Of a stretch of 64,000 nt of DNA, positions 45,521 to 51,717 are shown in pieces. A program made the translations under genes and the position numbers. Location of the stretch: assembly GCF_036199905.1 (NCBI RefSeq), contig NZ_CP108109.1, positions 558,001-622,000 of the forward strand. Reading direction: 5' to 3'. A model generated the notes under the pieces. The model did no database searches. It saw only the letters and a program-made list of their open reading frames with translations, and was not told where the DNA came from. The DNA is from Streptomyces sp. NBC_00223. GTDB taxonomy: Bacteria; Actinomycetota; Actinomycetes; Streptomycetales; Streptomycetaceae. Numbering within the stretch: position 1 is the first letter of the stretch; the number at the start of each line of letters is the position of its first letter.

Positions 45521-46539
45521 CGACCGCGCCGGCCCGCGAGTCGCGCCGTACGAGCCCGGAACTCCCGCCGCCCCGGGGCGAGTTGTCCTCGGCGGTGATC
45601 TCGTCGCTGCGCCGGGGCGGGGGCCCGCTGCCGGAGCGGATCGGCGACATGGACCCGTACGGCGACGACCTCCAGCTCGCGCTCTACGTCCTGTACGAGC
45701 TGCACTACCAGGGCTTTCTCGGCGTGGCCGACGACCGTGAGTGGGACGTGGGCCTGCTGGGCCTGCGGCAGCAACTCGAAGCGCGTTTCCTGGACGCCGT
45801 ACGGGCGCAGGTCCCCGGGGTCGCGGGCGTGGACGAGGCGCTGGCCGGGCTGCTGGTCGAGCCGGTCTCGGACGACGGGACCGGGGTGAGCCACTTCCTG
45901 CGGCGCGAGGGCGACCTCGGGCACCTGCGCGAGTACGCGGCGCTGCGTTCGCTCTACCACCTCAAGGAGGCCGACCCGCACGCCTGGGTCATCCCCCGGC
46001 TGCACGGTCGCGCGAAGGCCGCGATGGTGGCGGTGGAGTACGACGAGTTCGGCGCGGGCCGGGCCGAGGACATCCACGCGCGGCTCTTCGCCGACCTGAT
46101 GGACGACCTGGGCCTGGAGACCGCCTACGGCCACTATCTGGACGCGGCGCCCTCGGCGGCGCTGGCCACGGTCAATCTGATGTCCCTGCTCGGGCTGCAC
46201 CGCGCGCTGCGGGGCGCCCTGGTGGGGCACTTCGCGTCGGTGGAGATCACCTCCTCGCCGGGGTCGCGCCGGATGGCCGAGGCGATGCGGCGTACGGGGG
46301 CGGGTCCGGCCGCCGAGAGGTTCTACCGCGAGCACGTGGAGGCGGACGCGGTCCATGAACAGGTCGTACGGCACGAGGTGATCGCGCCTCTGCTGGCGGC
46401 GGAACCGCGACTGGAACCCGATGTCGTCCTCGGCATCGAGGCGACGGGGCTGCTGGAGGAACGCCTCGCCGCGTATCTGCTGCCCGCCTGGCGCGCGGGC
46501 GTCAGCTCCCTGCGCGTGCCCCTGCCGCCGGCTCCGTAG
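45517..46539 (+). CDS. iron-containing redox enzyme family protein (heme-oxygenase-like diiron oxidase, HDO)
   Basis: This 340-residue helical protein belongs to the HDO superfamily of nonheme diiron oxidases/oxygenases. Ligand-bearing helices look intact: LYVLYELHYQGFLGV (E..H), VAVEYDEFGAGRAEDIHARLFADLM (E...D..H) and FYREHVEADAVHEQVVRHE (E/H...D..H). HDOs desaturate, cleave or N-oxygenate amino-acid and fatty-acid derived substrates. The product here is unknown. A coupled CDGSH protein could serve as reductant. It is last in the methyltransferase-CDGSH-HDO operon (ATGA overlap). Confidence 0.85.
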   Translation: MTTAPARESRRTSPELPPPRGELSSAVISSLRRGGGPLPERIGDMDPYGDDLQLALYVLYELHYQGFLGVADDREWDVGLLGLRQQLEARFLDAVRAQVPGVAGVDEALAGLLVEPVSDDGTGVSHFLRREGDLGHLREYAALRSLYHLKEADPHAWVIPRLHGRAKAAMVAVEYDEFGAGRAEDIHARLFADLMDDLGLETAYGHYLDAAPSAALATVNLMSLLGLHRALRGALVGHFASVEITSSPGSRRMAEAMRRTGAGPAAERFYREHVEADAVHEQVVRHEVIAPLLAAEPRLEPDVVLGIEATGLLEERLAAYLLPAWRAGVSSLRVPLPPAP

Positions 46540-47054
46540 GTACGGGCGCCGGCGGGCTGCCCGGCGGGCCGGCGGCCGGGCGGGATCTAGCCGCTCGGCC
46601 GACGGGGGCGTTTCCCCGGAGGAACCGTGCGGCCGGCGCGCCCGAAGCGACGGTCGCCACGCGCCACGGCCGCACCCACCCGCACGATCCCCCGGGGAAA
46701 ATCTGTTAGTTAACTTTCCTATCCACATAGGACTACCAGCCCCGCCGAGCCGCCGTCAACCCCCCGTAAGAGATCCCCGCACCCCTGTTGACAGGGACTC
46801 GTCGGGCCGCGTAGGAATCCGGTCAGCGGCTCGGCGCGGACGTTCCGAACCCGACGCGCTCACCTGCATTTCGCCGATGCAGCTGACCCGGCCGCCCGCG
46901 GCCGTATGCCGCTCTGCCTGTTGCCGCAGCGACGGCCCGCCGCCCGCACCCCGCGGGCCCGGCCGGCCCGCCGTCTGCCGCAAGTCGCCCAGGTGTTGCT
47001 CAGGTCTGACGCACCGACGGCACTTCAGCCTGTCCTGTCAAGGAGATCACCAGC
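46540..47054. other. 514-bp upstream region of the phosphoesterase-chitosanase gene
   Basis: I see no gene here. At about 46703-46731 an A/T-rich block (TCTGTTAGTTAACTTTCCTA) stands out. Runs of GTTAACTTTCCTA-type sequence recur before secreted polysaccharide-active enzymes in Streptomyces, and this block could hold the promoter or operator. AAGGAGATCACCAGC precedes the ATG. Confidence 0.45.
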
Positions 47055-49328
47055 ATGACGCCTCCCTACCCTCCCCTGTCCGCAGGGCGCGCCGCCTCCC
47101 CACCGGGGACCCGCGCGGCGCACGCGGCACACGGCCGGCGGACCCGCCGCGCACTCGTCGCGGCCGGCCTCAGCGTGGCCGTGAGCCTGCTCGGCCTGAC
47201 CGCCACCGCCATGGCGTCCACCAACAACGCCGCCGCCACGGCGGCCCCGGCCGGCGTGACCGCCAACGGCATCCCCCAGTTCGACCACGTCGTGGTCGTG
47301 ATGGAGGAGAACAAGTTCTACGAGGACATCGTCGGCAGCAGCAATGCTCCGTACATCAACTCCCTTGCCACGCAAGGCGCGTCCTTCTCGAACTTCCACG
47401 GCACCACGCACCCCAGCCAGGGCAACTACATCGCCCTGTTCTCCGGCTCCACCCACAGCGTCGCCGACGACGACTGCCCGCACGACTTCAGCGCCGACAA
47501 CCTCGGCAACCAGCTCCTGACGCACAGTCACTCCTTCGTCGGCTACTCCGAGGACCTGCCGGCCGACGGCTCCAAGGACTGCGGCGACGACGGCGACAGC
47601 GGCTACGCCCGCAAGCACAACGGCTGGGTCGACTTCGCCAACGTCCCGGCGGCCTCGAACCTGCGCTACAGCCGCTTCCCGACCGACTACACCAAGCTCC
47701 CCGACGTGTCGTTCGTGACGCCCAACCTCGACAACGACATGCACGACGGCACCGTCAAGCAGGGCGACACCTGGCTCAAGAGCCACTTCGACGGCTACGT
47801 CCAGTGGGCCAAGACGCACAACAGCGCCCTCGTGCTCACCTGGGACGAGGACGACGGGGACGACTCGACCAACCAGATCGCGACCATGATCGTCGGCGCG
47901 CACGTCAAGACGGGCGCGAAGTCCAAGACCAAGTACAACCACTACTCGGTGCTGCGCACGCTGGAGGACATGTACGGGCTGCCCGCCCTCGGCAGCGCGG
48001 CCTCGGCGACCCCGATCACCGACATCTGGGACCTGAGCGGCACCACGCCGACCACGCCTCCGACCACACCGCCCACCACCCCGCCCACCACGCCGCCGAC
48101 GACCCCGCCGGCCGGGACGGTGAACCTCGCGCTCGGACGTCCGACGACGACCTCGTCCACCGAGAGCAGTTCGTACAGCGGCGCCAAGGCCGTGGACGGC
48201 GACACGTCCACCCGCTGGGGCAGCAAGGAGGGTTCCGATCCGCAGTGGATCTCGGTGGACCTCGGCGCCGACACCGCGCTGAGCCGGGTGAAGCTCAACT
48301 GGGAGGCGGCGTACGGGAAGTCGTACACGATCGACACCTCCCCTGACAACAAGACCTGGACGACGGTCTACAGCACGACCAAGGGTGACGGCGGCACCGA
48401 CGACCTGACGGTGAGCGGCCACGGGCGCTATGTGCGGATGAACGGCACCAAGCGCGGCACGTCCTACGGCTACTCGCTGTACGAGTTCGAGGTGTACGGC
48501 GCCGGTACGACCACGTCCCCGACAACTCCCACGACGACTCCGCCCACGACTCCCCCGACCACCCCTCCCACCACCCCGCCGACCACTCCGCCGACCACCC
48601 CGCCCGCCGGGACCGGCGCCGACCTGACGGACTCCCACAAGCGGGAGATCGCGATGGAGCTGGTCTCCTCCGCGGAGAACTCCTCGCTCGACTGGAAGGC
48701 CCAGTACACCTACATCGAGGACATCGACGACGGCCGCGGCTACACCGCCGGGATCGTCGGCTTCTGCTCGGGCACCGGCGACATGCTCGACCTCGTCCAG
48801 CACTACACCGACCTCAAGCCGGGCAATGTCCTCGCCAAGTACCTGCCCGCGCTGAAGAAGGTCAACGGCACCGCCTTGCACTCCGGCCTCGACCCGAACT
48901 TCGTCGCCGACTGGCACACCGCCGCCAAGGACGGTGTCTTCCAGCAGGCGCAGAACGACGAACTCGACCGGGTGTACTTCAACCCGGCGGTCACCCAGGC
49001 CAAGGCCGACGGCCTGCGCGCGCTCGGGCAGTTCATGTACTACGACGCGATCGTGATGCACGGCCCCGGCGACGACGCGACCAGCTTCGGCGGCATCCGC
49101 AAGGCCGCCATGAAGAAGGCCAAGACGCCCGCGCAGGGCGGCAACGAGACCACCTACCTCAACGCCTTCCTCGACGCCCGCAAGGCCGCGATGAAGACCG
49201 AGGCGGCACATGACGACACCAGCCGGGTGGACACCGAACAGCGCGTCTTCCTCACCGACGGGAATCTCGACCTCAAACCGCCGCTGAAGTGGAAGACCTA
49301 CGGCGACTCGTACCGGATCGACAGCTGA
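47055..49328 (+). CDS. secreted phosphoesterase / F5-8C (CBM32-like) / GH46 chitosanase fusion protein
   Basis: This is a 757-residue exported three-domain protein. After a long signal peptide (about 1-60) comes a phosphoesterase domain of the AcpA/phospholipase C type (about 75-330: FDHVVVVMEENKFYEDI, NFHGTTHPSQGNYIALFSG, VLTWDEDDGDD). A TPPTTPPTTPP linker follows, then a discoidin/F5-8C binding module (about 355-482: NLALGRPTTTSSTES, GDTSTRWGS, QWISVDLGAD), a second Pro/Thr linker, and a complete GH46 chitosanase (about 520-757: MELVSSAENSSLDWKAQYTYIEDIDDGRGYTAGIVGFCSG). The catalytic Glu (about 541) and Asp (about 559) are present. It should hydrolyse chitosan and a phosphate ester at the same surface. 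The chitosanase part is close to Streptomyces sp. N174 CsnN174. Confidence 0.9.
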   Translation: MTPPYPPLSAGRAASPPGTRAAHAAHGRRTRRALVAAGLSVAVSLLGLTATAMASTNNAAATAAPAGVTANGIPQFDHVVVVMEENKFYEDIVGSSNAPYINSLATQGASFSNFHGTTHPSQGNYIALFSGSTHSVADDDCPHDFSADNLGNQLLTHSHSFVGYSEDLPADGSKDCGDDGDSGYARKHNGWVDFANVPAASNLRYSRFPTDYTKLPDVSFVTPNLDNDMHDGTVKQGDTWLKSHFDGYVQWAKTHNSALVLTWDEDDGDDSTNQIATMIVGAHVKTGAKSKTKYNHYSVLRTLEDMYGLPALGSAASATPITDIWDLSGTTPTTPPTTPPTTPPTTPPTTPPAGTVNLALGRPTTTSSTESSSYSGAKAVDGDTSTRWGSKEGSDPQWISVDLGADTALSRVKLNWEAAYGKSYTIDTSPDNKTWTTVYSTTKGDGGTDDLTVSGHGRYVRMNGTKRGTSYGYSLYEFEVYGAGTTTSPTTPTTTPPTTPPTTPPTTPPTTPPTTPPAGTGADLTDSHKREIAMELVSSAENSSLDWKAQYTYIEDIDDGRGYTAGIVGFCSGTGDMLDLVQHYTDLKPGNVLAKYLPALKKVNGTALHSGLDPNFVADWHTAAKDGVFQQAQNDELDRVYFNPAVTQAKADGLRALGQFMYYDAIVMHGPGDDATSFGGIRKAAMKKAKTPAQGGNETTYLNAFLDARKAAMKTEAAHDDTSRVDTEQRVFLTDGNLDLKPPLKWKTYGDSYRIDS

Positions 49329-49340
49329 CCAGCTGCTCAC

Positions 49341-49376
49341 GGGCCCGCCGGCCGGTATGTCCCGGCCGGCGGGCCC
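49341..49376. terminator. hairpin terminator after the chitosanase fusion gene
   Basis: GGGCCCGCCGGCCGG (49341-49355) pairs perfectly with 49362-49376 over a 6-nt loop, starting 12 bp after the stop codon. Confidence 0.8.
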
Positions 49377-49411
49377 CCTCCCCGTGAGTGATTCCGTCAG
49401 AGAGGACAGTC

Positions 49412-50737
49412 ATGTACATCTCGTCGAGCCGGGCCGGCGGCCACCCGGAGTCACCGGCGCCGCCCGTGTCCGCCAAGTCCCCGGCCGCCTCCGACACCGC
49501 CTCGGACACCGCCTCCCCGGCCGGCCGCCGCGCGCGCGGGACGTGGTGGCGGGCGGGCGTGGACGCCAATGTGCTCGCGCTCGGATCGGTCAGCATGGTG
49601 ACGGACATCTCCTCCGAGATGATCACCGCGGTGCTGCCGATGTACGTCATCTTCACCCTCGGCCTGAGCCCGCTCCAGTTCGGCGCGCTCAACGGCATGT
49701 ACTTCGGCGTCACCGCACTGGTCCGCGTCGCCGGCGGCCACGCGGCCGACCGCTGGCAGCGCCGCAAGCTGGTGGCGGGCAGCGGATACGCGCTGTCGGC
49801 GGCCTGCAAGCTGGGCCTGCTCGCGGCCGGCGCCTCCGTACCGGTGCTGGGCGCGGTGATCGCCGCCGACCGTACGGGCAAGGGCCTGCGCACCGGGCCG
49901 CGCGACGCGCTGATCTCGCTGAGCAGCACCCCGGAGACGCTGGGGCGTTCCTTCGGCGCGCACCGGGCGCTGGACACCACCGGCGCGTTCCTCGGTCCGC
50001 TGGCCGCCTTCGGGCTGCTGCTGGCCACGCCCGGCCACTACGACACGGTGTTCGTGGCGAGCTTCTGCGTCGCCGCGCTCGCGGTGATGATCCTGGTCCT
50101 GTTCGTCCGCGACCGGCGGCAGCCGATGGAGCAGGGCGAGCGGGCGACCGTACGCGCGGTGCTCGCGCTGCTGCTCCGGCCGGGCTTTCGACGGGTGGGC
50201 GTCGGCGTCCTGCTGCTGGGCACGGTGACGCTCAGCGACTCGTTCGTCTATCTGCTGATCCAGCAGCGGCTGGACATCTCCGAGGAGTACTTCCCGCTGC
50301 TGCCGCTGGGCACCACGGGCGCGTATCTGCTGCTCGCCATGCCGCTCGGCCGGTTCGCCGACAAGGCCGGCCGGCTGCGGGTGTTCGTGGCGGGTTACGC
50401 CGCCCTGCTCTGCGCGTATCTGCTGCTGTTCGGCCCGGTGGGCGGTCCCCTTCTGGTGGTCCTCACGCTCGTGCTGCACGGCGTGTTCTACGCCGCCACC
50501 GACGGGGTGCTGATGGCCGCCGTCGGGCCGATGGTGCCGGCGCATCTGCGGGCGGCGGGTATGTCGCTGATTCAGACCGGTCAGTCGATGGCCACTTTGG
50601 CGTCCTCGGTGCTGTTCGGCGCGGCCTGGTCGATGTGGGGGCTGCACACCGCGCTCGCCGTGGCCCTGGCCGTCCTGGTCGTCGCGGTCGCGGCGGCGTT
50701 GATCATCCTTCCGCTGCGTGAGGAGCACACCGCGTGA
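49412..50737 (+). CDS. MFS transporter
   Basis: This 441-residue transporter has about 12 helices after a long polar N-terminus (about 1-50). Helix 1-2 reads VLALGSVSMVTDISSEMITAVLPMYVIF, a segment typical of a bacterial MFS group whose members are often annotated as drug or hydrophobic-compound exporters. The loop 2-3 motif is GGHAADRWQRRKLVAG, and DRTGKGLRTGPRDALIS is a further family mark. No specific substrate is suggested. GAGAGGACAGTC precedes the ATG at 49412. Its GTGA overlap couples it to a beta-propeller gene. Confidence 0.88.
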   Translation: MYISSSRAGGHPESPAPPVSAKSPAASDTASDTASPAGRRARGTWWRAGVDANVLALGSVSMVTDISSEMITAVLPMYVIFTLGLSPLQFGALNGMYFGVTALVRVAGGHAADRWQRRKLVAGSGYALSAACKLGLLAAGASVPVLGAVIAADRTGKGLRTGPRDALISLSSTPETLGRSFGAHRALDTTGAFLGPLAAFGLLLATPGHYDTVFVASFCVAALAVMILVLFVRDRRQPMEQGERATVRAVLALLLRPGFRRVGVGVLLLGTVTLSDSFVYLLIQQRLDISEEYFPLLPLGTTGAYLLLAMPLGRFADKAGRLRVFVAGYAALLCAYLLLFGPVGGPLLVVLTLVLHGVFYAATDGVLMAAVGPMVPAHLRAAGMSLIQTGQSMATLASSVLFGAAWSMWGLHTALAVALAVLVVAVAAALIILPLREEHTA

Positions 50738-51717
50738 ACACCAGAAGCCGGCTGCTGACCCTGGTGGTGGTCGCCCTCGTCGCCGCCTGCGCCGTCACCG
50801 GATACGTCCTGCGCACCCGTGACAGCGGCTCAGGAGGCGCGAGCGGCACCGTACGGCTGGACACGGCCGGGCAGATCCTCTTCCGCGACACCGCGCCGGG
50901 GGCGGGCTTCGGCCGTATCGCCTCGGTGCCCCTGGACCGCCCGGGCGCCGCGCGGACCACCGGCAGCGTGCTGTGCGACCGGCTCTACGCCGCCGACGGC
51001 ACCGGGATCTGCATGCAGCGCAAGGGCCCGGTGCCCTCCACGCATGTCACGGTCCTGGACCGCTCGCTGCGGCGGGTGCGCGAGGTCAAGGCCGAGGGCT
51101 TCCCCAACCGGGCGCGGGTCTCGGCGAGCGGGGCCATGCTCTCCTGGACCACCTTCGTCCAGGGCGACTCCTATCTGCGGGACGACTTCTCGACCCGTAC
51201 GTCGATCCTGGACACCAGGACCGGGCGGCTGGTCGACACCGTCGAGCAGATCCCGCTGACCCTCGACGGGAAGCCGTACCACGCGGCCGACGTGAACTAC
51301 TGGGGTGTCGGATTCGCCGCCGACGACAACACCTTCTACGCCACGGTCCGCACCTCGGGCCGTACGTACCTGGTCAAGGGCGACTTCCGGAAGTGGACCG
51401 CGCGCACGCTGCGGACGAACGTCGAGTGCCCGTCGCTGTCGCCCGACAACACCCGGATCGTCTTCAAGAAGCGGGTCAACGCCAGCGCCAACCGGCCGTG
51501 GCGGCTGTACGTCCTGGACCTCGCGACCATGCGGGAGACGCCGCTCGCGGAGGAGCACAGCGTCGACGACCAGGCGGCCTGGCTGGACGACCGCACGGTG
51601 ATGTACGGGTTGCCGCGGCACGGCGGCGGCTGGGACGTGTGGGCGGCGCCGGCCGACGGGAGCGGGGCGCCGCGGCTGCTGATCCACGACGCGAATTCGC
51701 CCGCGGCGGTGCGGTGA
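50734..51717 (+). CDS. membrane-anchored TolB-like beta-propeller protein
   Basis: This 327-residue protein starts with one N-terminal helix (about 5-26, LLTLVVVALVAACAVTGYVL) that anchors or exports it. Repeated WD40/TolB-like blades follow: ILFRDTAPGAGFGRIASVPLD, ICMQRKGPVPSTHVTVLDRSLRRVREV, CPSLSPDNTRIVFKKRVN, RLYVLDLATMRETPL, AAWLDDRTVMYGL, DVWAAPADGSGAPRLLI. It has no enzymatic motif. It begins with GTG overlapping the MFS stop (GTGA), so the propeller is probably a partner or sensor of that transporter outside the membrane. Confidence 0.8.
   Translation: MNTRSRLLTLVVVALVAACAVTGYVLRTRDSGSGGASGTVRLDTAGQILFRDTAPGAGFGRIASVPLDRPGAARTTGSVLCDRLYAADGTGICMQRKGPVPSTHVTVLDRSLRRVREVKAEGFPNRARVSASGAMLSWTTFVQGDSYLRDDFSTRTSILDTRTGRLVDTVEQIPLTLDGKPYHAADVNYWGVGFAADDNTFYATVRTSGRTYLVKGDFRKWTARTLRTNVECPSLSPDNTRIVFKKRVNASANRPWRLYVLDLATMRETPLAEEHSVDDQAAWLDDRTVMYGLPRHGGGWDVWAAPADGSGAPRLLIHDANSPAAVR

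Follow-up and report, generated by a model that had tools for sequence, protein, structure and literature searches.

A predicted secreted phosphoesterase-CBM32-chitosanase fusion protein of Streptomyces and its possible part in releasing phosphate from fungal chitosan

Why should a chitosanase be joined to a phosphoesterase in one polypeptide? The question is raised by a gene of Streptomyces sp. NBC_00223 at positions 47055..49328 (+) of a 64,000-nucleotide stretch of its genome, hereafter the window. The gene is open from ATG to stop and encodes a predicted secreted protein of 757 amino acids, consisting of a phosphoesterase, a CBM32 module and a GH46 chitosanase. The answer that we favour, with moderate confidence, is that this protein is a secreted bifunctional enzyme that mines phosphate from the chitosan-(poly)phosphate of Mucoromycota-type walls, under the control of the repressor CsnR.

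The phosphoesterase-CBM32-GH46 fusion is real and lies in a single intact frame. The ribosome-binding site AAGGAG (47040..47045, +) and the ATG are in register across an upstream alignment of ten fused loci. The frame opens with an N-terminal export signal (RRTRRALVAAGLSVAVSLLGL) and a spacer (47055..47264, +); the signal, judged by eye, is hydrophobic and arginine-rich, in keeping with the secretion proposed in an earlier note on this DNA. It is followed by an AcpA-fold phosphoesterase domain (residues 71-328; 47265..48038, +) recognised by Pfam, a structural model and a fold match; a first Pro/Thr linker (48045..48122, +); a chitosan-type CBM32 (residues 357-482; 48123..48500, +) recognised by its identity to module DD1 of Paenibacillus sp. 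IK-5 chitosanase; a second Pro/Thr linker (48501..48614, +); and a GH46 chitosanase domain (residues 521-757; 48615..49325, +) recognised by Pfam and by alignment with 1chk. Both linkers, delimited by sequence and repeat analysis, are 12-nt-type tandem repeats. The Pfam matches are PF04185 at residues 96-310 (128.6 bits, cut-off 23, covering only positions 105-356 of the profile), PF00754 at residues 365-477 (84.9 bits, cut-off 28.2) and PF01374 at residues 535-744 (337.8 bits, cut-off 27). A split frame, which the earlier note had asked to be checked, or an assembly artefact in the window was ruled out, as the chromosome is a single contig and the identical three-module frame is found in six relatives (L004, L005, L006, L007, L114 and L145).

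When the phosphoesterase alignment was run against the sequences of the PDB, only weak matches resulted, and the fold was assigned by fold search. The AlphaFold2 model of the domain, built from 47 aligned sequences (pLDDT 93.5, pTM 0.93), matches AcpA (2d1g) with Z 27.0 and 2.6 A over 253 residues, at 19% identity in the structural alignment, RePLC (8k3g) with Z 27.0 and 2.1 A over 242 residues, and PLC N (9gy2) with Z 23.6. Its fold neighbours are acid phosphatases, phospholipases C, phosphodiesterases, nucleotide pyrophosphatases and sulfatases. Ten candidate active-site residues, in domain numbering E15, N16, S51, H118, N157, D158, H160, D161, D194 and E195, do not vary among the 47 sequences; from the range of the structural alignment, some of them may be the counterparts of AcpA residues 43, 44 and 175. 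By profile and predicted fold the domain is a PF04185 phosphoesterase of the AcpA-phospholipase C group, as the earlier note had proposed. The scores against the NCBIfam models for phosphocholine-specific phospholipase C (TIGR03396, 14.4) and acid phosphatase (TIGR03397, 20.4) lie below the curated cut-offs of 580.25 and 362.75.

That AcpA-fold relatives include both phospholipases C and phosphodiesterases counts against a firm assignment of the substrate class, and it opens another reading: the protein could be a weapon that lyses fungi, in which the GH46 domain opens the wall and the phosphoesterase acts as a membrane phospholipase C, the aim being the prey cell and not its phosphate. The presence of RePLC and PLC N among the best fold matches agrees with this. 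The modelled domain has 258 residues, against 399-686 in the phospholipase C chains, and both the calcineurin-like phosphoesterase of the parallel operons and the PHO-box-like sites of some unfused relatives (see below) point to phosphate. We consider the weapon reading unlikely.

The GH46 part is more readily assigned. Residues 521-757 align with CsnN174 (1chk) over 237 residues, and its E22 and D40, which we take to be the catalytic residues, map to E541 and D559 of the fusion. With PF01374 and both catalytic residues present, the domain belongs to GH46, in agreement with the earlier note, and is predicted to hydrolyse chitosan. The F5/8C module of that note is likewise present: in the PDB search the middle part of the protein matched the CBM32 modules of the IK-5 chitosanase, and 76 of 126 residues (60%) are identical to DD1. 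Since DD1 and DD2 of Paenibacillus sp. IK-5 are chitosan-specific (PMC5635096), the fusion CBM32 is of the chitosan type by kinship, and chitosan binding is predicted. Ten other proteins carrying this type of CBM32 were scanned, and it accompanied GH8 in seven of them and GH5, PF00149 and a sugar dehydrogenase in one each. The statement that GH46 enzymes are usually single-domain needs correction, as GH46 with CBM32 alone is already known from Kitasatospora setae Csn2 (PMC5635096) and from a review of GH46 modules (PMC4663542). That review names CBM32, peptidoglycan-binding and viral domains, and its main text holds no word starting with 'phosph' (PMC4663542).

How widespread is the arrangement? 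The search for other instances of this domain order yielded ten distinct Streptomyces loci with the fusion: the window, L003, L004, L005, L006, L007, L008, L010, L114 and L145. A whole-protein scan of one genome per species covered 84,980 species, and the best 80 of its 347 confirmed stretches represent 79 distinct loci; among these best 80, the three modules are in-frame in L004, L005, L006 and L007, and L003, L008 and L010 also come from this set. L114 and L145, both with three modules in a single frame, were added from genome searches, while L007 and L003 recur in the genome set as G007 and G020 and were counted once. Seven of the ten loci thus have three modules in a single frame, one (L010) joins the phosphoesterase to GH46 without the CBM, one (L003) is interrupted by an in-frame stop where phosphoesterase and CBM meet, and in one (L008) the frame ends at the contig end. 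Among 394 genomes of the family, five, including the split G020, have a phosphoesterase domain with an identity of 78% or more to that of the window, and always in the fusion locus; the next best phosphoesterase is 63% identical. GH46 is common, being present in 297 of the 394, and the fusion is therefore conserved but rare. Unfused phosphoesterases of the fusion's family are common, and no GH46 gene was found beside the phosphoesterase in the lower loci L146-L160 (15 read) or L168-L176. The long GH46 frames of L112, L115 and L161-L164 were rejected as fusions, as they contain the GH46 domain only, the rest resembling upstream open frame by eye. Spread by plasmids was also rejected: none of 16 matching plasmid records covers 80% of the fusion protein.

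The modules of these loci appear to differ in their histories. In the tree, the fusion CBM32s group together as a single clade (8 rows, support 99/95). The GH46 modules (9 rows) do not group in this way; the starred branches require two changes or more, so that one common origin of this part is not supported. The chitosanase domain may have been replaced at some later time, or acquired on more than one occasion. Exchange between the fusions and resident csnA-type genes could account for the scatter.

The fusion gene heads a conserved three-gene unit. It is followed by a gene for an MFS transporter (49388..50737, +; PF07690) and, overlapping the latter by 4 nt in the window, one for a TolB-like beta-propeller protein (50734..51717, +), which matches no Pfam family and gives a weak TolB-propeller match far below the cut-off. 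The order fusion, MFS, TolB-like is kept wherever the sequence continues beyond the fusion gene, as it does in nine loci including the window but not in L008, with identities to the window proteins of 69.5-82.3% for the transporter and 74.6-90.5% for the TolB-like protein. On the 5' side, the window has genes for a methyltransferase and a PF14518 redox enzyme, and these were unmatched in the fetched stretches of the other fused loci. Nine further loci with unfused phosphoesterases were read (L168-L176, five chosen by proximity of phosphoesterase and TolB matches and four from the phosphoesterase list). Seven show the order phosphoesterase-MFS-TolB, in L172 the order is phosphoesterase-TolB, and in L175 both partners are missing. 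The phosphoesterase of L171 carries added Ig-like and jelly-roll-like parts, judged by eye. No CsnR box was found in the seven unfused phosphoesterase-MFS-TolB operons, where plus-strand scores are 9-11. It is possible that a CBM32-GH46 tail and a chitosan operator were later added to a phosphate-type operon.

Such an operator is predicted upstream of the fusion gene in the window. A published CsnR site, quoted in PMC4856308, provided an 18-base core as the query, and the CsnR-type (ROK) site TTAGTTAACTTTCCTATC (46706..46723, +) is its best match in the 64-kb window, at 15 of 18. The canonical box, with at most three mismatches, occurs at seven places in the 8-Mb genome, and the reversed-pattern control gave none. 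Of the other six boxes, one lies before a ROK repressor/solute-binding protein pair, which is the layout of the csnR cluster, and one before the second GH46 gene; the remaining four precede GH18-like+CBM35, GH8+CBM32, GH9 and GH75+CBM35 genes. A CsnR-type box is aligned in all ten fused loci, with plus-strand scores of 12-15 of 18; the 12 of L006 only equals its own shuffle maximum, and its box still aligns with the others. Plus-strand scores at 32 unfused phosphoesterase genes are 9-12. In the window and in six relatives, the left half of the operator (TTAGTTAA) deviates from the canonical sequence. The site precedes the predicted -35 by 64 bp and the start codon by about 330 bp, while the other six boxes of the genome are much nearer their genes. 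In known chitosanase genes, too, the CsnR operator is nearer, either overlapping the transcription start (PMC3048496) or situated between promoter and ribosome-binding site (PMC5635096). By its predicted box, in this unusual position, the fusion gene would be a member of the CsnR regulon and CsnR would bind here. Between operator and gene lie a promoter-like TTGACA-N18-TAGGAA (46788..46817, +), whose TTGACA is found in nine of ten aligned fused upstream regions (absent in L003) and whose -10 part varies, and a leader block (46822..46864, +) strongly conserved in the alignment of the ten loci and without an Rfam match. A riboswitch or other known RNA was rejected for 46300-49900, where the single Rfam match (49341-49409) is 3' of the gene and below the gathering score.

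The earlier note had expected phosphate release under starvation and a PhoP box upstream. This box was searched for, as two GTTCACC-type repeats, with a simple consensus scan that could miss a degenerate operator. The best site upstream of the window fusion reaches 11 of 14, a score that occurs eight times on both strands of the 64-kb window; the fused loci reach 9-11 at best and none stands out. PHO-box control of the fusion is therefore not supported. Sites of 12-13 of 14 are present in three unfused operons (L169, L170 and L173), above a shuffle maximum of 11, and one of 11 in a fourth (L174), and no site above shuffles was found in L168, L171 and L176. Since the proteins of the first four are closely related by eye, their sites amount to nearer one case than four. 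These unfused sites favour the idea that the fusion is a chitosan-anchored scavenger induced by phosphate starvation under PhoP control, as does a GCTCACC half-site that the window and L004 have in common within the conserved leader block, where each of them scores 11. That L007, L114 and L145 reach 11 at other positions, together with the low scores and the frequency of 11 in the window, makes this idea very unlikely in our view. Lacking a convincing PHO box and having a CsnR-type operator, the gene is likelier to respond to chitosan than to phosphate starvation, and the starvation part of the earlier proposal is not upheld.

Another set of operons bears on the purpose of the joining. At E 1e-60, 207 of the 394 genomes contain a TolB homologue, and 15 further MFS-TolB loci were read, 14 from the upper part of the TolB list and one being the second copy in the genome of NBC_00223 itself. 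In 13 of the 15, the pair is preceded by a gene for a secreted calcineurin-like phosphoesterase (PF00149), which in 9 of these 13 carries an N-terminal CBM32 (in L207 the CBM32 is in another frame). L210 encodes a PhoX besides the calcineurin-like enzyme. In L196 and L206 the MFS-TolB pair is accompanied by neither a phosphoesterase nor a CsnR box, and MFS-TolB was rejected as a constant phosphoesterase marker, on these two loci and on the counts: the calcineurin-like phosphoesterase occurs in 59 of the 394 genomes, against 207 with TolB, so that many lower-listed TolB homologues must have other neighbours. From the side of the phosphoesterase the association is close: all but one of the 59 PF00149 genes are followed, within 4.5 kb and in the same orientation, by a TolB homologue. 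The best 30 of these 59 have an MFS gene in 30 cases, a CBM32 in 25 and a CsnR-type box in 30 (12-18 of 18), each box outscoring all 30 shuffled versions of the upstream region in which it lies. In a separate scan of the 13 loci, L207 and L210 being left out, 10 score 14-17, and L205, with a CBM32-phosphoesterase, scores only 10. In the tree, 27 of 29 labelled metallophosphoesterase CBM32s are in one clade (99/92) apart from that of the fusions, and those of L074 and L200 fall outside it. As the two groups are mostly apart, the tree indicates that a phosphoesterase has been joined to a chitosan-type CBM32 at least twice. In L074, of Nonomuraea soli, a CBM32-CBM35-phosphoesterase gene is divergent beside a CBM32-GH8 gene, and the interval between the two genes contains a pair of CsnR-type boxes, which score 15 and 14 of 18.

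The independent joining of CBM32 to a second phosphoesterase fold suggests that physical attachment to chitosan matters. It thereby speaks against the view that the protein is two separate enzymes in one chain, the linkers being cut after export and the fusion merely coupling their expression, and so does L010, which without a CBM keeps phosphoesterase and GH46 joined. In favour of cutting are K. setae Csn2, which is cleaved in the linker in recombinant cultures (PMC5635096), the stop at the phosphoesterase/CBM junction of L003, and the abundance of unfused phosphoesterases of this family. On balance we regard cutting as improbable.

We return to the favoured reading, that of phosphate mining from chitosan. 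From the domain make-up, gene order, conservation and operator-like site, as read in the sequence, and from the predicted phosphoesterase fold, we infer enzyme activities, CsnR binding, substrate and partner roles as follows. Glucosamine oligomers would probably release the CsnR repressor, so that the fusion is transcribed and the enzyme appears during chitosan digestion. The CBM32 would anchor the protein to chitosan, the GH46 domain would cleave the chain, and the AcpA-fold phosphoesterase would strip phosphate from phosphorylated material on the chitosan, most likely the polyphosphate of Mucoromycota walls; removal of the polyanion would also lay the chitosan bare. The two proteins encoded downstream, the MFS transporter and the TolB-like propeller, would probably deal with a product. 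Chitin, chitosan and polyphosphate are major parts of Mucoromycota walls (PMC7307774). In Rhizomucor pusillus, phosphate makes up at least 17% of the wall fraction that alkali does not dissolve, which was interpreted as a possible complex of chitosan and phosphate in which the chitosan may be shielded (PMC2996746). The fungal-wall target of the earlier note is thus plausible, and chitosan-bound (poly)phosphate seems to fit better as the substrate than the phospholipid or phosphomannan named there. Several observations count against the favoured reading: the distance of the operator from the gene and its deviating left half, the low box scores of L006 and L205, the GH46 modules that fall outside a single clade, the MFS-TolB pairs without a phosphoesterase, the stop in L003, and the range of activities among AcpA-fold relatives.

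Taken more broadly, the data lead us to suggest, tentatively, an actinobacterial operon for mining chitosan-phosphate that is switched by CsnR, comprises a chitosan-anchored phosphoesterase with MFS and TolB partners, and was assembled at least twice, with AcpA-type and calcineurin-like enzymes and with PhoX in one version. If so, the window protein would be its most integrated form, combining phosphate release, chitosan binding and chitosan cutting, and the chitosan-polyphosphate of Mucoromycota would be a regulated phosphorus source for soil bacteria. The use of two unrelated phosphoesterases for the same coupling suggests that a real substrate lies behind it, namely chitosan-bound phosphate in fungal walls. 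The CsnR-type operator would place phosphate release inside the chitosan response, linking carbon/nitrogen and phosphorus acquisition. As bound phosphate is a known impurity of fungal chitosan (PMC2996746), the fusion might also provide an enzyme for obtaining phosphate-free fungal chitosan.

GH46 enzymes, the CBM32-GH46 pairing of Csn2 and CsnR regulation are already known. In the literature searched, mainly the titles and abstract openings of open papers, no description was found of a phosphoesterase-chitosanase architecture, of phosphoesterase members of the CsnR regulon, or of a metallophosphoesterase arranged with chitosan or CBM32.

Among known systems, Francisella AcpA (2d1g) and RePLC (8k3g) share the fold of the phosphoesterase domain, and their chains have 481 and 433 residues against 258 in the domain. 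We know of no CBM or GH module in either of them. Streptomyces sp. N174 CsnN174 (1chk) shares the aligned GH46 domain and its catalytic residues with the fusion, and its solved chain is GH46 only. The Paenibacillus IK-5 chitosanase/glucanase (4zxe, 4zz5, 2rv9), whose DD1 resembles the fusion CBM32 so closely, differs in bearing two CBM32 modules, DD1-DD2, on a GH8 enzyme. The Streptomyces CsnR regulon (csnA, csnREFGHK) has the operator-like site in common with the fusion gene, and the other boxes of the genome precede genes of this kind; the accessible part of its description mentions no phosphoesterase, MFS or TolB-like member (PMC6097792). Kitasatospora setae Csn2 resembles the fusion in its IK-5-type CBM32 placed N-terminal to GH46, its Ser/Ala/Pro-rich linker and its putative CsnR operator, and differs in having no phosphoesterase, in flanking the csnR cluster and, in the accessible part of its report, in the absence of any mention of MFS-TolB partners (PMC5635096).

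A 43-bp block (46822-46864), situated 3' of promoter-like sequence ahead of the fusion gene, is strongly conserved by alignment in all ten fused loci; an Rfam search across 46300-49900 returned no match within it. Broken or decaying forms of the unit were also encountered. At L003:5839-8217 (the same locus as L116, genome G020), an in-frame stop between the phosphoesterase and the CBM32 leaves a lone secreted phosphoesterase. At the locus of another relative (L167, genome G003), the TolB-like gene (86%) is kept beside an apparent MFS gene remnant and the fusion gene was not found, which looks like decay of the fusion-MFS-TolB unit in this one relative.

Genes combining CBM32 with a phosphoesterase were found as well. 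In Nonomuraea soli (L074:4008-7827), a CBM32-CBM35-PF00149 phosphoesterase gene is divergent from a CBM32-FN3-GH8 gene, and the stretch separating the two contains a pair of CsnR-type boxes. In genome G019 (locus L210), a PhoX gene (PF05787) is added to the CBM32-phosphoesterase operon, 5' of MFS-TolB; the PhoX-containing operon was seen in this locus, with G007, G020 and G021 as candidate further cases. The fusion locus is also present in G007, G019 and G020. Within the strain's own genome, a GH18-like+CBM35 gene and a GH9 gene (L192, L194) have CsnR-type boxes, and both may also belong to the chitosan response.

GH46 was additionally met in other settings. The GH46 of L014, a record titled as a Patescibacteria MAG, is 76% identical to that of the window, and the record is probably misbinned actinobacterial DNA. 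A different secreted GH46 fusion, carrying a right-handed beta-helix domain N-terminal to GH46, occurs in L110 (G031) and L111 (G032), the helix being assigned to PF13229 by Pfam in the former and recognised by eye in the latter.
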